Both the position numbers and the translations under genes were made by a program. The notes below the pieces were generated by a model. That model was not told the origin of the DNA. It did no database searches and worked only from the letters and a program-made list of their open reading frames with translations. DNA of 32,457 nt from Nitrospirae bacterium JdFR-81 (lineage in GTDB: Bacteria; Nitrospirota; Thermodesulfovibrionia; UBA6902), in contig MTOQ01000034.1 of the NCBI GenBank assembly GCA_002011735.1, positions 1 through 32,457 of the forward strand. Direction: 5' to 3'. This document shows positions 102-5,067 of this stretch, one piece after another. Position 1 is the first letter of the stretch; each line of letters starts with the position of its first letter.

Positions 102-458
102 CTACAGAAACCTCTTTATACTGGAGAGGACAGAGTTGGTAAGCCTCCTCCACTTCTCCCTGACAGGCAGGACAACGATTATCATAAACCGTTCATCCTG
201 TATATCCACATACCGCACGACCAGTCTCATGCCCCTGTTATCAGCCCTGATCGCCACTTCATCGATATGTCCGGTGTGAAGCTCATCACCTACCCTCTTT
301 ATAAAACCCCTGTCTCCTGAAAAGAGAGAGGCCAGCACCTCGGGGTCATACTCAGCACCGTGGTTCTCAACAACAAGCCCATCCCTGTCCACAAGGACGA
401 CCTGTTTGACCCTGCCCTCATCCACTGCCACCTTTAATTCCTCTGAAAAGAAGGACAT
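102..458 (-). CDS. Roadblock/LC7-domain protein (first of three)
   Basis: This 118-residue protein has the size and pattern of a single Roadblock/LC7 domain, the fold of MglB-type regulators of small GTPases. The signature is VVLVDRDGLVVENHG near residues 20-33, followed by alternating hydrophobic strands (MRLVVRYVD, FMIIVVLPV). The frame stays open upstream to 560, but I chose the ATG at 458 because AAGAGG lies a few bases before it and the upstream residues do not look like the family. It is divergent from the response regulator gene at 541, so both promoters must lie within about 80 bp. It is more diverged than the two Roadblock proteins at 2022 and 2403. A role as GTPase regulator or scaffold is inferred from the fold and from the GTPase at 2749-3216. 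Confidence 0.75.
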   Translation of the reverse strand: MSFFSEELKVAVDEGRVKQVVLVDRDGLVVENHGAEYDPEVLASLFSGDRGFIKRVGDELHTGHIDEVAIRADNRGMRLVVRYVDIQDERFMIIVVLPVREKWRRLTNSVLSSIKRFL

Positions 459-540
459 CCCGATCCTCTTGAAATTTTTTCGTCTCCAATCTAATATAAC
501 AACACCCTTTTTTTCAAGTGTCTTGGGATTTGTTAAGGAG

Positions 541-1980
541 ATGCAGGATACCATACTCATTGTAGATGATAACGAGACACTCCTGCAGGCGCTGGAGTTT
601 AATCTGACCCAGGCAGGCTACAGGGTCTTGAAGGCCGTGGATGGCAGGGAGGCCCTTGAGATCGCCCTCCGTGAACACCCCGACATAATAGTTTCAGATG
701 TGGCGATGCCTGAGATGGATGGTGTTGAGTTATGCAGGAAGATAAGGGAGAATGCATCCTTCAAGGATGTCCCCTTTATATTTCTTACGGCCCATGGTGA
801 ACCGGAGGAAAGGGTAAGGGGCCTGCGGTCAGGGGCAGATGATTACATCGTGAAGCCATTTGATATAGAGGAGTTGATAGCCCGTGTGGAGGTCATTCAC
901 CGGAGGATGAAGAAGGATACATCGAGTAATGGCCTGTCCGGTGACCTGTCGCATGTCCTGCTGCCCGATATACTCCAGATGCTTGAACAATCAAGGAAGA
1001 AGGGAAGACTGGTAATCCAGACAGACGACGACAAGGGCTACATCTCTATTGATAACGGGATGCTGCTTGAGGCGGTATTCGGAGAACACAGGGGAGAGGA
1101 TGCACTTGTAAGGATGTTCATGCTGAAGAACGGAAGATTCTACTATCAGATGGGAGAGGTCGAAGAGGGGTCGATAATGAAGTCCATAGGGTTTACCATG
1201 ATAGAGGTCGCAAAGCTATGTGACGAGATTGAGATGTTGAAGGAATTCATTCCGGATGATGAGGTGAAACTTGAGATCATAAAGACTCCTCCCTCTACCG
1301 ATGATGAGACATCCACAATCATAAGGCTCTTGCAGGATTCTCCAAAGAGTATAAACGAGCTTGCAGAGATGTCAGGCCTCTCTGTAACCAGGACATCCAT
1401 TATAGCGGCAAGACTGAGAAAGGACTCCTTTGTCGAAATAGCGAATGAAAAAGACAGGAGGTGCATGATGGTATCAAAGAAAGACCCCATCAAATTCGCC
1501 CTGTGGGGGATGCTCGTGGGCAATATCGAGAGCATGGGTATACTCCCTGCACTTCAGGGTGGAGAGGCGATCGCACAGGCCCTTGAGGGCAACGATGTGC
1601 TGGAGAAGCTATCCGAGATCGATGGTGAGAACAATTATGAATTCCAGAGCAAGAACGGCTTCAGGTTTGTAATCTTAAAGGCCTGTCCATTCACCCCGAT
1701 ATATAAAGACATACCACCATGGAGTGAAAAGGCGATGAGACTCGTTGAGGCATACAACAAGAGGTCAGATGGAGGAGGTGCACTCCACCCACTCTGTCTG
1801 GTCCATAAGGGTATCAGGAGCGCGATGAAGGCAGGTATCGTCAGCATCGGCTGTAGGAGTGGCTCAACCGGAAAGATGGAGATCGCTGAACACGCACTCG
1901 ATAAGGTTGGTATATCAAAGGATGAGGCCATCGCCATGCTCGAGGGGAAGGCCTGTCTGTTTGCAATCAAGGAGGGATGA
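541..1980 (+). CDS. Response regulator with PATAN (DUF4388) and winged-helix domains
   Basis: This protein has 479 residues from the ATG at 541. Residues 4-122 are a receiver domain with acidic pair D9/D10, phospho-acceptor D53 (SDVAMPEMDG) and conserved K105 (VKPF). Residues 131-232 match the PATAN/DUF4388 domain common in delta-proteobacterial and cyanobacterial signalling proteins. Residues about 257-312 look like a winged helix (SINELAEMSGLSVTRTSI). The last 160 residues are a domain I do not recognise with cysteines at 382, 419, 438 and 472. AAGGAG directly abuts the ATG, an unusually short spacing; the frame is open upstream to 406, but those residues do not fit a receiver domain. It sits just upstream of two Roadblock genes, so it is probably the output of the nearby kinase and coupled to the GTPase module. 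The DNA or RNA target is unknown. Confidence 0.88.
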   Translation: MQDTILIVDDNETLLQALEFNLTQAGYRVLKAVDGREALEIALREHPDIIVSDVAMPEMDGVELCRKIRENASFKDVPFIFLTAHGEPEERVRGLRSGADDYIVKPFDIEELIARVEVIHRRMKKDTSSNGLSGDLSHVLLPDILQMLEQSRKKGRLVIQTDDDKGYISIDNGMLLEAVFGEHRGEDALVRMFMLKNGRFYYQMGEVEEGSIMKSIGFTMIEVAKLCDEIEMLKEFIPDDEVKLEIIKTPPSTDDETSTIIRLLQDSPKSINELAEMSGLSVTRTSIIAARLRKDSFVEIANEKDRRCMMVSKKDPIKFALWGMLVGNIESMGILPALQGGEAIAQALEGNDVLEKLSEIDGENNYEFQSKNGFRFVILKACPFTPIYKDIPPWSEKAMRLVEAYNKRSDGGGALHPLCLVHKGIRSAMKAGIVSIGCRSGSTGKMEIAEHALDKVGISKDEAIAMLEGKACLFAIKEG

Positions 1981-2021
1981 GGTCAGGTTCTATCCATAAA
2001 AAATAATAAGGAGGAAGGGAT

Positions 2022-2393
2022 ATGGCTATCACCACAGAAGAGCAACTGACACAGGTACTGAAGAGGCTACAGACCGGCACACCTGATATCGAAGGTGCCG
2101 CAGTAATAAGTATGGATGGTCTTGTAATGGCCTCTTCCCTGCCTGCAGAGGCAGAGGAAGACAGGGTCTCGGCGATGAGTGCCGCCCTGTATGGCATAGG
2201 GACGAGGACTGTCGAGGAACTCCAGAGGGGTGATATTGAACAGCTCTACATCAAGGGGAGCAATGGCTATGTGATAATCACACAGGCAGGCCCTAATGCC
2301 GTGCTTGCTGTAATGGCAAACGCAAGGGTGAAGCTCGGCATAGTCTTCCTTGATGTGAAGAGGGCGGTAGAGGAGATAGCCAAGATTGTGTAA
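2022..2393 (+). CDS. Roadblock/LC7-domain protein, MglB-like (second of three)
   Basis: This 123-residue protein is the most canonical MglB-like member here. It has IEGAAVISMDGLVMASSLP near residues 23-41, an AMSAALYGIGTR helix, and GSNGYVIITQAGPNAVLAVMA in the central strands. MglB proteins dimerise and act as GTPase-activating proteins for MglA. The start is supported by AAGGAGG about 8 bp before the ATG. It lies 41 bp after the PATAN response regulator and 9 bp before the next Roadblock gene, so the three are probably one transcript. Binding to the GTPase encoded at 2749-3216 is an inference. Confidence 0.9.
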   Translation: MAITTEEQLTQVLKRLQTGTPDIEGAAVISMDGLVMASSLPAEAEEDRVSAMSAALYGIGTRTVEELQRGDIEQLYIKGSNGYVIITQAGPNAVLAVMANARVKLGIVFLDVKRAVEEIAKIV

Positions 2394-2402
2394 CAACCGG
2401 AT

Positions 2403-2765
2403 ATGGAAGTAGAGAAGATAAAGACCGAGATCGAGAGGATAGTAAGGGGTGTAGAAGGCGTAAGGTCTGTCTTTCTCATAACAGATGATGGCCTTTCGGT
2501 CGTAAGCACACTTGAGACAGGTGAAGAGGAGATAAAGTCCACAGCGGTGGGGGCAATCCTGTGTTCAGCAGGAGAGAGGGGATCAACGGAGCTCGAACTT
2601 GGTGACTTCAATGCCGTTGTGACTATTGCGGAGAGGGGATACTTTGTTATAAGCCGTGTCAAGAAGGAATTCATCCTTATGGTGGTTGCAGGTTCAGAAG
2701 TGCCGCTTGGCATCGTCCTCCTCAATATAAGGAGGGCGATCAGGAGGATCAGAGATTATCTATGA
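2403..2765 (+). CDS. Roadblock/LC7-domain protein (third of three)
   Basis: This 120-residue protein is a second Roadblock/LC7 domain placed 9 bp after the MglB-like gene. It has VRSVFLITDDGLSVVSTLE near residues 20-38, an acidic loop, FNAVVTIAERGYFVISRV in the central strands, and PLGIVLLNIRRAIRRIRDYL as the terminal helix. A tandem pair suggests a heterodimer. No strong ribosome binding site precedes the ATG, so translation may depend on coupling to the upstream gene. The 3' end overlaps the 3' end of the convergent GTPase gene by 17 bp, which makes antisense effects between the two possible. Confidence 0.88.
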   Translation: MEVEKIKTEIERIVRGVEGVRSVFLITDDGLSVVSTLETGEEEIKSTAVGAILCSAGERGSTELELGDFNAVVTIAERGYFVISRVKKEFILMVVAGSEVPLGIVLLNIRRAIRRIRDYL

Positions 2766-3216
2766 TCCTCCTCAGGACATCCATACAGAACCCCCTCTCC
2801 CTCACATCCCCTTCCATGCAATGAATATGGAGGGGAAGAGGAGAAAGGACCCTGGTGACATCCTTCATGGTGAGAAGGGAGACAGTTGCCTTTCTGTTAA
2901 TCACAGAGATAAAAGGAGTGCCAAGCATCTTTACCTCTTTCACTATCTGCAGATCCAGGTCTTCAAGTGGCCTTGAGTTGTCAAAGATCAGGATTGACAT
3001 CCTTGCTGACAGTGCCACTATATCCCTTATGCACTCGAATCTTGCCTGTCCTGGGGTGCCGTAGAAATGGAGTGTCGTCCCGTCAAAATTGAATGTGCCA
3101 AAGTCAAAGGCAATGGTTCTACCCTGATGTTCTATATTGACCGCATCAGGTATGATGCTCCTTATGAAGGTGCTTTTACCTGCCTCTGCCTTGCCGAAGA
3201 TGACTATCTTGACCAT
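2749..3216 (-). CDS. Ras-like small GTPase, MglA-type
   Basis: This 155-residue protein has a P-loop GKAEAGKST at 8-16, a switch I threonine near T34 (GRTIAFDFG), and YGTPGQ at 52-57 where Ras proteins have DxxG. The proline variant resembles the PGQ motif of MglA. The base-specificity motif is degenerate: VINRKA at 105-110 in place of NKxD. MglA-type GTPases switch polarity and signalling complexes in bacteria and are controlled by Roadblock proteins, three of which lie within 3 kb. The gene converges on the Roadblock gene at 2403 and diverges from the kinase at 3277. It has no Shine-Dalgarno sequence; a strong promoter lies so close that the transcript should be nearly leaderless. Nucleotide preference is uncertain because of the altered motif. 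Confidence 0.85.
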   Translation of the reverse strand: MVKIVIFGKAEAGKSTFIRSIIPDAVNIEHQGRTIAFDFGTFNFDGTTLHFYGTPGQARFECIRDIVALSARMSILIFDNSRPLEDLDLQIVKEVKMLGTPFISVINRKATVSLLTMKDVTRVLSPLPLHIHCMEGDVRERGFCMDVLRRIIDNL

Positions 3217-3227
3217 CGTGGGCAGAG

Positions 3228-3256
3228 ATTATAAAGTTTTTTGATGGGAAAATCAA
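3228..3256 (-). promoter_or_regulatory. Sigma-70-like promoter of the small GTPase gene
   Basis: On the minus strand TTGATT (3251-3256) and a perfect TATAAT (3228-3233) are separated by exactly 17 bp. The start codon follows the -10 box by 11 bp, so a normal transcription start would leave a leader of only about 4-6 bases, with no room for a Shine-Dalgarno sequence. Confidence 0.65.
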
Positions 3257-3276
3257 CATCCGGGTTCGTGTAGAGG

Positions 3277-5067
3277 ATGGCAAGATCCATAGTCATTAGG
3301 GTATTTGTCATATTCACACTCTGTATCGCTGTGGCCTTCTCAGTTTTGACCTTTCTGATCATACAGAGAGAAAAGGGCCTCATCATAGAGGAGGCCCTTA
3401 AGATGGCAGAGAGGGAGGCGATATCCATAAGTGAGGCATTAAAGGCAAGCATGCTTGAGGGCAAGGCAGACTCCACAATAAACTTCCTGCAGTATCTTGA
3501 GGCCCGATCAGGGACCTCTGTCATGATCTACTCACCTGCAGGAGAGAGCCTTTTCAGAGAGGGAGAGAGGATCTCCATTCCTGATGTGGTGATAAGGGAC
3601 GGAAGGCAATACAGCCACATAGAGAAGGATTCCGTTGTCTTTTACCTCCCGCTGAGGAACGAGCCTGCCTGCAGGAGGTGTCACGATGATAATAAGATCC
3701 TGAGGGCTGTCGTGGTGATGAACCTTCCAGTGGAGGGACTGGAAGGGAGCCTGAAGGGGACAGAACTGAGATTGATCCTGTACGGGCTGTTGAGCATAAT
3801 CATCACAGGGATACTCATATATCTATTTAATCAGAGGCTTATAAAGAGACCCCTTGAACACCTCATAACAGGGATCGAGAGTGTCAGCAAGGGCGATCTC
3901 TCCACCACACTCCCTGTCAAGGGCGATGATGAGTTCTCAAAGGTTGCGGCTGCCTTTAACTCCATGATCACGAGGCTCAGGGAGTTCCAAGAGAGGCTTG
4001 AGGAGATGGTGAGGCACAGGACCAGGGAGCTACAGGAGTCAAGAGACAATCTCAGGAGTCTCCATGAAGACCTGAAGAGACACAACGAAGAGCTCAGACG
4101 CCAGCGTGACTTTATAGAGACCGTGATCAACAGTATAAACAACGGGATCATCGTCACTGATATCGATGGCAGGATCCTGCAGGCAAACCCATATACATGT
4201 AAATTCCTTGATAGAGAGAGCCAGGAGCTGAAGGGCAGGAGACTGGGAGAGGTCTTCAATGGACTTCTGGAGTTGAAGGAGAAGGGGGTGGATGAGGGCG
4301 AGATAGATGTGGGTGGCAGGAAGGTATATATAGGTTTCAAGGAATACCCGCTCAACTCTCCAGAGGGGACAGCAGGCCATATCATCCTGTTCAAGGATAT
4401 CACGGAGATCGTTGAATTAAAGAAGGAGCTTGACAGGAAGAAATACTTCTCAACCATAGGAGAGATGGCCTCTTGGATAGCACATGAGGTGAGGAACCCC
4501 ATATTTGCTATATCTTCTGTAACAAACATCATAATAAAACAGCTCCATGGGACCGAATTTGAAAATTTTGCACGATCCATCCTGAAGGAGGTGGACAGGA
4601 TCAACCGCCTTGTGGATGACCTCCTCTCCTATGGCAGTCCCCTCAGGCTTTACAAAAAAGAGACAGAGATGAGAAGCTATATTACAGAGCTCTCCTTGAT
4701 CTCCGATCTGAGGATACGTCTTGAACTCCCTGACAAAGAAGTAAATGCCCATATCGACCGGGAGAGGCTGCTCCAGGTATTCCGTAACCTCCTGAAGAAC
4801 GCAGCAGAGGCTGACGCTACAGAGGTCGTAATCTCCCTTGTCCAGGAGAACGGGAATATAAGGATCACACTGAGGGACAACGGTAAAGGGATCAAGCAGA
4901 AGGATATATCGAAGCTATTCACCCCGTTCTTTACAACAAAGAAGACAGGCACAGGCCTTGGACTGGCTATATGCAAGAAGATCGTGGAGGAACACGGAGG
5001 CACCATCTGGGTGGATGCAGAGGGGCACCCTGGCTCAACATTCCACATCTCCGTGCCTGTCAGTTGA
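3277..5067 (+). CDS. Membrane histidine kinase with periplasmic c-heme motif, HAMP and PAS
   Basis: This is a 596-residue sensor kinase. Residues 8-29 are a transmembrane segment, 30-164 a periplasmic sensor with CRRCH at 132-136, and 165-184 a second transmembrane segment. HAMP follows (about 185-238), then a coiled coil (235-280) and a PAS domain (281-380). The kinase core has phospho-acceptor H403 in HEVRNP, the N box RNLLKNAAEA with N508, DNGKGI at 534-539 and GTGLGL at 558-563. A periplasmic CxxCH between two helices is typical of c-heme sensor kinases that respond to redox state or small gases. The partner is probably the response regulator at 541, though the GTPase gene lies between them. 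AGAGG abuts the ATG directly. The ligand is unknown. Confidence 0.93.
   Translation: MARSIVIRVFVIFTLCIAVAFSVLTFLIIQREKGLIIEEALKMAEREAISISEALKASMLEGKADSTINFLQYLEARSGTSVMIYSPAGESLFREGERISIPDVVIRDGRQYSHIEKDSVVFYLPLRNEPACRRCHDDNKILRAVVVMNLPVEGLEGSLKGTELRLILYGLLSIIITGILIYLFNQRLIKRPLEHLITGIESVSKGDLSTTLPVKGDDEFSKVAAAFNSMITRLREFQERLEEMVRHRTRELQESRDNLRSLHEDLKRHNEELRRQRDFIETVINSINNGIIVTDIDGRILQANPYTCKFLDRESQELKGRRLGEVFNGLLELKEKGVDEGEIDVGGRKVYIGFKEYPLNSPEGTAGHIILFKDITEIVELKKELDRKKYFSTIGEMASWIAHEVRNPIFAISSVTNIIIKQLHGTEFENFARSILKEVDRINRLVDDLLSYGSPLRLYKKETEMRSYITELSLISDLRIRLELPDKEVNAHIDRERLLQVFRNLLKNAAEADATEVVISLVQENGNIRITLRDNGKGIKQKDISKLFTPFFTTKKTGTGLGLAICKKIVEEHGGTIWVDAEGHPGSTFHISVPVS

Follow-up and report, generated by a model that had tools for sequence, protein, structure and literature searches.

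Proteins with a PATAN domain (DUF4388) are encoded near the genes of the small GTPase MglA and the Roadblock protein MglB in MglA groups 1 and 5 (PMC4316618), a neighbourhood reported by Makarova et al. (2006), as cited in PMC4316618. Conservons (AGPS; CvnA-D, Mfp) are actinobacterial operons that encode a histidine kinase, a Roadblock protein, a domain of unknown function and a small GTPase, and their signal paths are still called poorly understood (PMC13343842). Orphan proteins of the MglB type, with no GTPase encoded nearby, account for 328 of 749 (PMC4316618). The hand-off from two-component systems to Roadblock/GTPase switches is poorly understood, and the gene cluster described here, at 102 bp–5067 bp of a 32,457 nucleotide stretch of DNA from Nitrospirae bacterium JdFR-81 (the window, meaning the whole stretch analysed), bears on this question. 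The window is one complete contig (G000:C25) of a 2.05 Mb Nitrospirota metagenome-assembled genome (MAG; G000); sequence upstream of position 1 lies beyond the contig. An earlier note on this DNA had described three Roadblock genes, an MglA-like GTPase, a response regulator and a c-heme kinase, and had proposed that redox signals pass through kinase and regulator into a Ras-like switch, as a possibly undescribed pathway. All of the named genes were recovered, close to where they had been placed, from reading frames and Pfam scans. The cluster proved to be a real module with a core of kinase, response regulator (RR), Roadblock proteins and an additional domain, which we have designated Cdom; the GTPase is optional.

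Conservation of the module across families

A search with Cdom across 231 genomes of the class revealed close homologues (78–79%) in two genomes of other families, Nitrospirota bacterium M_MetaBat.199 (G103) and Nitrospirae bacterium DBS2-1.bin112 (G227); the nearest named relatives carrying the same genes were Nitrospirota MAGs. G227, which belongs to another GTDB family, encoded the RR, Cdom, two Roadblock proteins (RoblA and RoblB), the antisense GTPase and the c-heme kinase in identical order and on identical strands. This block lay inside a type II secretion operon, between gspE/gspF-like and gspG/H/I/J/K-like genes (named from their translations). G103 retained the RR, Cdom, RoblA, RoblB and kinase; the GTPase was missing between RoblB and the kinase and was not found elsewhere in this MAG, which is 71% complete. 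The earlier expectation that the gene set would be co-conserved in relatives therefore held for G227 and, apart from the GTPase, for G103, but not for the first Roadblock gene.

Comparison of the three genomes showed 75–77% identity for Cdom, 73–78% for RoblA and 56–72% for the receiver domain (REC), and 43–45% for RoblB, 35–40% for PATAN and 36–41% for the kinase; the GTPase, compared between two genomes, was 43% identical. As linkage was kept although the kinase (37% between the window and G227) and the GTPase (43%) have diverged, selection on the unit is implied, and the near-identical block in a distant relative makes it look like a real signalling module and not a set of chance neighbours. 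Cdom and RoblA were equally slow-evolving, which suggests that the two touch each other.

All three Roadblock genes scored above the PF03259 (Robl_LC7) cut-off of 23 bits, as the earlier reading had it: Roadblock protein 1 with 27.3 bits, RoblA (2022 bp–2393 bp, plus strand, 123 aa) with 69.5 bits and RoblB (2403 bp–2765 bp, plus strand, 120 aa) with 28.9 bits. These are the only Roadblock genes in the whole MAG, and since its entire set of three sits here, their crowding is not due to chance. Each protein carried the Asp-Gly pair that marks MglBs coupled to MglA groups 2–5 (PMC4316618). Roadblock protein 1 is encoded on the minus strand (102 bp–458 bp, 118 aa), divergently from the RR; its reading frame is open to 560, and a start at 458, where a Shine-Dalgarno sequence precedes MSFFSEEL, is likelier. 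It had no homologue at E ≤ 1e-3 among the 231 genomes and was for this reason rejected as a part of the module. This third Roadblock is private to G000, and RoblA and RoblB alone belong to the unit.

Cdom and the wider Roadblock cassette

The RR (541 bp–1980 bp, plus strand) begins with a REC domain (approximately 553 bp–891 bp; Response_reg, 110.7 bits) that contains the phospho-acceptor Asp, followed by PATAN/DUF4388 (937 bp–1227 bp; PF14332, 54 bits against a cut-off of 25) and a weak winged helix (1315 bp–1461 bp). The receiver-PATAN-winged helix order given earlier was thus borne out at Pfam cut-offs for the first two domains, the winged helix remaining below threshold (MarR_2, 20 bits against 27, E = 8e-4). 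Beyond it the protein ends in Cdom (1477 bp–1977 bp, approximately 165 aa), which the earlier note did not contain. Searches of Pfam, NCBIfam and the PDB brought up nothing that matched Cdom. Its homologues from Nitrospirota and Chloroherpetonaceae aligned over their full length (alignment A8), and C70, C107, H110, R114, C126, S128, G132 and C160 (counted from the codon at 1477) were invariant in 15 of 15 divergent members. The four Cys and one His probably bind a metal or an Fe-S cluster, or act as a thiol switch. An identity with V4R/TRAPP, prompted by the Cys spacing, was rejected, with no Pfam match and an hhalign probability of 0.1% against a comparison set of proteins whose own V4R matches lay below the V4R cut-off. 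Cdom is an undescribed domain family in the libraries searched and the newest element of the module.

In G103 and G227 Cdom was a separate gene directly 3′ of the RR gene, and the RR-Cdom protein of the window is therefore a natural fusion. The RRs of these two genomes carried a different C-terminal domain in place of the fused Cdom (L050:2545–3048 and L051:8032–8514, respectively). The middle of this domain resembled the G2-G3 region of the GTPase, with an hhalign probability of 43% against a wider GTPase alignment and 5% against a narrow one; it is possibly a dead (degenerate) G domain, for which hmmsearch and hhalign are suggestive only.

Twenty-six Cdom genes were located in the class. Every gene of types A and C had a Roadblock gene no more than 0.9 kb away (17/17), and none of type B did (0/9); with genomes of 2.5 Mb carrying approximately 1.5 Roadblock genes each, adjacency by chance works out at approximately 0.1% per gene. 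Type C genes usually sat directly behind one REC-PATAN-Roadblock protein, an architecture confirmed by Pfam for two. In a Chloroherpetonaceae locus (L063) Cdom was followed by a PATAN-Roadblock fusion, and in an f24 genome it lay directly behind a PATAN gene. Three kinds of fusion were thus found: REC-PATAN-winged helix-Cdom in the window, REC-PATAN-Roadblock beside Cdom in G108 and others, and PATAN-Roadblock beside Cdom in Chloroherpetonaceae. This repeated fusion and adjacency shows that REC, PATAN, Roadblock and Cdom have been recurrently joined. The REC-PATAN-Roadblock plus Cdom cassettes, including L055, had no GTPase alongside. A REC-PATAN-Roadblock fusion beside a Cys4-His Cdom offers a concrete partner for orphan Roadblocks, and the recurrence of the cassette makes the role of GTPase-less Roadblocks testable.

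Type B Cdom genes (L057:6272–6853 and relatives) clustered with genes for a PATAN RR, a CheW-like protein, a CheA-like hybrid and methyl-accepting chemotaxis proteins; the sole neighbourhood read fully, in G062, contained PATAN, CheW-like and CheA-like genes. Type B Cdom is likely, from this company, to be an uncharacterised chemosensory accessory.

Sensor, GTPase and readings of the pathway

The histidine kinase (3277 bp–5067 bp, plus strand, 596 aa) has a transmembrane helix, an extracytoplasmic domain, a second transmembrane helix and then HAMP, PAS, HisKA and HATPase domains (Pfam). The heme motif noted earlier was confirmed as a single CxxCH (CRRCH, nucleotides 3670–3684) in the extracytoplasmic domain, and it recurred at an equal position in the three orthologues (CRRCH at aa 132 in the window, CRYCH at 135 in G103 and CLQCH at 132 in G227). 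The phospho-acceptor His403 was present in HEVRNP, and the C-terminus (...GSTFHISVPVS) is without an LPxR motif. The G103 kinase matched the sensor profile PF21563 with 28.4 bits (E = 2.1e-6), above the cut-off of 27. The sensor thus appears to lie near the c-heme sensor family of GSU0582/GSU0935 (PMC3460858). These have lately been reclassified as Cache domains, and c-heme Cache sensors that are fused to signalling modules are reported to detect nitric oxide (NO) (PMC12889525). By analogy, redox, given earlier as the signal, is possible as one option only, NO being an alternative. A multiheme cytochrome with eight CxxCH motifs (14,793 bp–16,271 bp, plus strand; Multi-haem_cyto, 104 bits) is encoded approximately 10 kb from this kinase.

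The 155 aa GTPase (2749 bp–3216 bp) is encoded on the minus strand, where its gene shares 17 bp with the tail of RoblB and diverges from the kinase gene; in G227 it is likewise antisense, with a similar RoblB overlap, and divergent from the kinase. It matched PF01926 (35.4 bits), and its P-loop GKAEAGKST fits GxxxxGK[ST]. The AlphaFold2 (AF2) model, with a predicted local distance difference test (pLDDT) score of 84, gave a Ras-superfamily G domain (Foldseek E approximately 1e-8 to Rab6, Sec4 and Ras). Motifs and model together agree with the GTPase and degenerate G4 motif described before. In G3 both the window and G227 proteins have GTPGQ, the form of MglA groups 2–5, group 1 having TVPGQ (PMC4316618), and Arg33-Thr34 at G2 (GRT) occupies the alignment position of the intrinsic Arg finger in group 1 MglA; the GTPase therefore mixes MglA classes. 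In G4, which reads NRKA in the window and NRKT in G227, the guanine-selecting Asp is lost and the sequence departs from the [NT]KxD of MglA. This motif, which gives guanine specificity, is kept in groups 1, 4 and 5, and groups 2 and 3 deviate from it (PMC4316618), so that a deviant G4 alone does not exclude membership of the MglA family. Nor should loss of GTP binding be assumed, since CvnD9 (group 2), whose G4 is also deviant, is an active GTPase (PMC4316618). An MglA is also expected to have an MglB homologue encoded no more than four genes away; here RoblB overlaps the GTPase gene and RoblA is next. The GTPase, into which the earlier note had led the signal, is not the constant part of the unit. 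Its orthologue was present in only 2 of the 231 genomes (the window genome and G227) and absent from 60 sampled relatives, and the G103 set (L050) exists without it.

G000 also encodes, at another site, a second and conventional MglA-like protein (G000:C17:22105–22683, L101). It is of the group 1 type and has a long extension at the C-terminus; outside the window G000 yielded no Roadblock gene, and hence no MglB for this MglA. MglA matches were also present in G103 and G227.

From the gene set, domain content, co-conservation, fusions and invariant residues set out above we infer the signal, cofactors, phosphotransfer, protein contacts, GTPase regulation and target that follow. Our preferred reading, held with a confidence that falls a little short of even, is a heme-sensing two-component system with a Roadblock-based switch complex as its output. 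The kinase would bind one c-type heme outside the membrane, respond to redox state or to a diatomic gas, for example NO, and phosphorylate the REC of the neighbouring RR. The RR, through PATAN, would engage Cdom and RoblA, probably with RoblB, which together would form a tight complex. Where present, the GTPase would be an additional switch, which RoblA/RoblB would read or regulate as GTPase-activating protein (GAP), guanine nucleotide exchange factor (GEF) or effector. The target is likely to be the motor of a type II secretion system or of a type IV pilus, given the location in G227 and the Synechocystis PATAN regulators, which bind PilB1, PixG binding PilC as well (PMC12288463). A potential target exists in G000, which has six T2SSE-family ATPase matches, none of them beside the module. 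A bolder version, which we think doubtful, makes Cdom a new cytoplasmic cofactor domain (metal, Fe-S or thiol-redox) in an obligate complex with a Roadblock dimer. Extracytoplasmic heme and cytoplasmic Cdom signals would be merged on a Roadblock scaffold driven by the PATAN RR, and an optional GTPase with an unusual site (group 1 Arg finger, GTPGQ of groups 2–5, altered base specificity) would set the secretion or pilus motor.

Several observations weigh against the heme-sensing Roadblock switch. The complete six-gene set was found in two genomes only, the GTPase was lacking in all 36 genomes sampled from the family to which the window belongs, and the module of the window is not adjacent to secretion or pilus motor genes. 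With PF21563 the G227 kinase reached 23.6 bits and the window kinase E = 0.027, below the cut-off. The AF2 model of Cdom, from four sequences, was poor (pLDDT 67), and a Foldseek search with it brought up no fold match beyond hits such as Hsp90, all with probability <0.2, so that the Cdom cofactor is a guess. A lone type A Cdom, without a Roadblock neighbour, is encoded at L113:4028–4537 (G547, of the same class as L063). The G547 gene lies on a contig of 3,293,456 bases, possibly from a cultured strain that would suit experimental work.

The complete P-loop, the GTPGQ G3, the Arg beside the G2 Thr, the predicted Ras fold and the arrangement of genes and strands shared with G227 would suit the linear pathway proposed in the earlier note. 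In this reading, which resembles MglA/MglB polarity control, the kinase signals to the RR and the RR to RoblA/RoblB, these act on the GTPase as GAP or GEF, and the GTP-bound GTPase is the output. We consider this unlikely, as the G103 module lacks the GTPase, the REC-PATAN-Roadblock plus Cdom cassettes have none as a neighbour, and both orthologues have lost the G4 Asp, which makes nucleotide choice uncertain. Less probable again is an ordinary transcriptional two-component system, in which the winged helix of the RR binds DNA and Roadblocks, Cdom and GTPase are modulators or unrelated passengers. The weak winged helix after PATAN would fit it, as would group 3 MglA systems, in which MglA and MglB are accompanied by a protein with receiver-like and winged-helix parts (PMC4316618), but no DNA-binding model passed its cut-off, the last domain of the window RR is Cdom and not a winged helix, and related REC-PATAN-Roadblock proteins end in Roadblock, with no winged-helix match at E ≤ 0.01. 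That the genes lack functional unity and lie together by chance or through faulty assembly is scarcely credible, for although the full set is rare and close relatives of the window lack it, order and strands are shared by two independent MAGs of different families (G103 minus the GTPase) with divergent kinase and GTPase, gene fusions join the parts, and G103 and G227 already contradict it.

Two further genes of the window encode fusions. One (23,526 bp–24,569 bp, minus strand) joins DUF4388/PATAN (98.8 bits) to a C-terminal T2SSG (pseudopilin G, 33.8 bits), giving a PATAN-GspG-like protein. The other (5115 bp–8297 bp, plus strand) encodes an unusual fusion of 1060 aa in two weakly related parts, including a UDPGP nucleotidyltransferase, and resembles bifunctional fucokinase/fucose-1-phosphate guanylyltransferase.

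Comparison with known systems

The label of an undescribed pathway was too broad, as PATAN proteins near MglA/MglB and operons of kinase, Roadblock and GTPase had already been reported (PMC4316618; PMC13343842). Like MglA/MglB with PATAN neighbours, the module has Roadblocks coupled to a small GTPase, PATAN nearby, and the GTPGQ G3 and Asp-Gly pair of groups 2–5; its own features are the 155 aa GTPase with GRT in G2 and NRK[A/T] in G4, the c-heme kinase and Cdom. A conservon likewise combines histidine kinase (CvnA), Roadblock (CvnB), unknown-function domain (CvnC) and small GTPase (CvnD), its core being without an RR, whereas the module has a true RR, Cdom as the unknown domain, two Roadblocks, a Nitrospirota host and a kinase without a C-terminal LPxR. 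As scans of the cluster proteins also gave no CvnC-like (Pfam DUF742) match, membership of the conservons was rejected. Group 3 MglA systems (beta/gamma-Proteobacteria; PMC4316618) share a receiver and winged-helix protein that accompanies a single MglA and up to two MglBs; they differ in lineage, and the clear PATAN, Cdom and in-cluster kinase are features of the module described here.

The c-heme Cache/PAS sensors (DUF3365/Tll0287, GSU0582/GSU0935, PF11845/PF21563) also have a single extracytoplasmic CxxCH in a HAMP-containing signalling protein, whereas the window protein is below the profile cut-off and its output is a Roadblock module. PixG and other PATAN regulators of cyanobacteria share the REC and PATAN architecture, but PMC12288463 mentions no Roadblock, Cdom or GTPase with them. 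A literature search, most subscription papers lying outside it, found no paper pairing DUF4388 with Roadblock or MglA. The general kind of system has thus been described before; what is new is this exact combination of genes, the c-heme kinase within it and the Cdom family.

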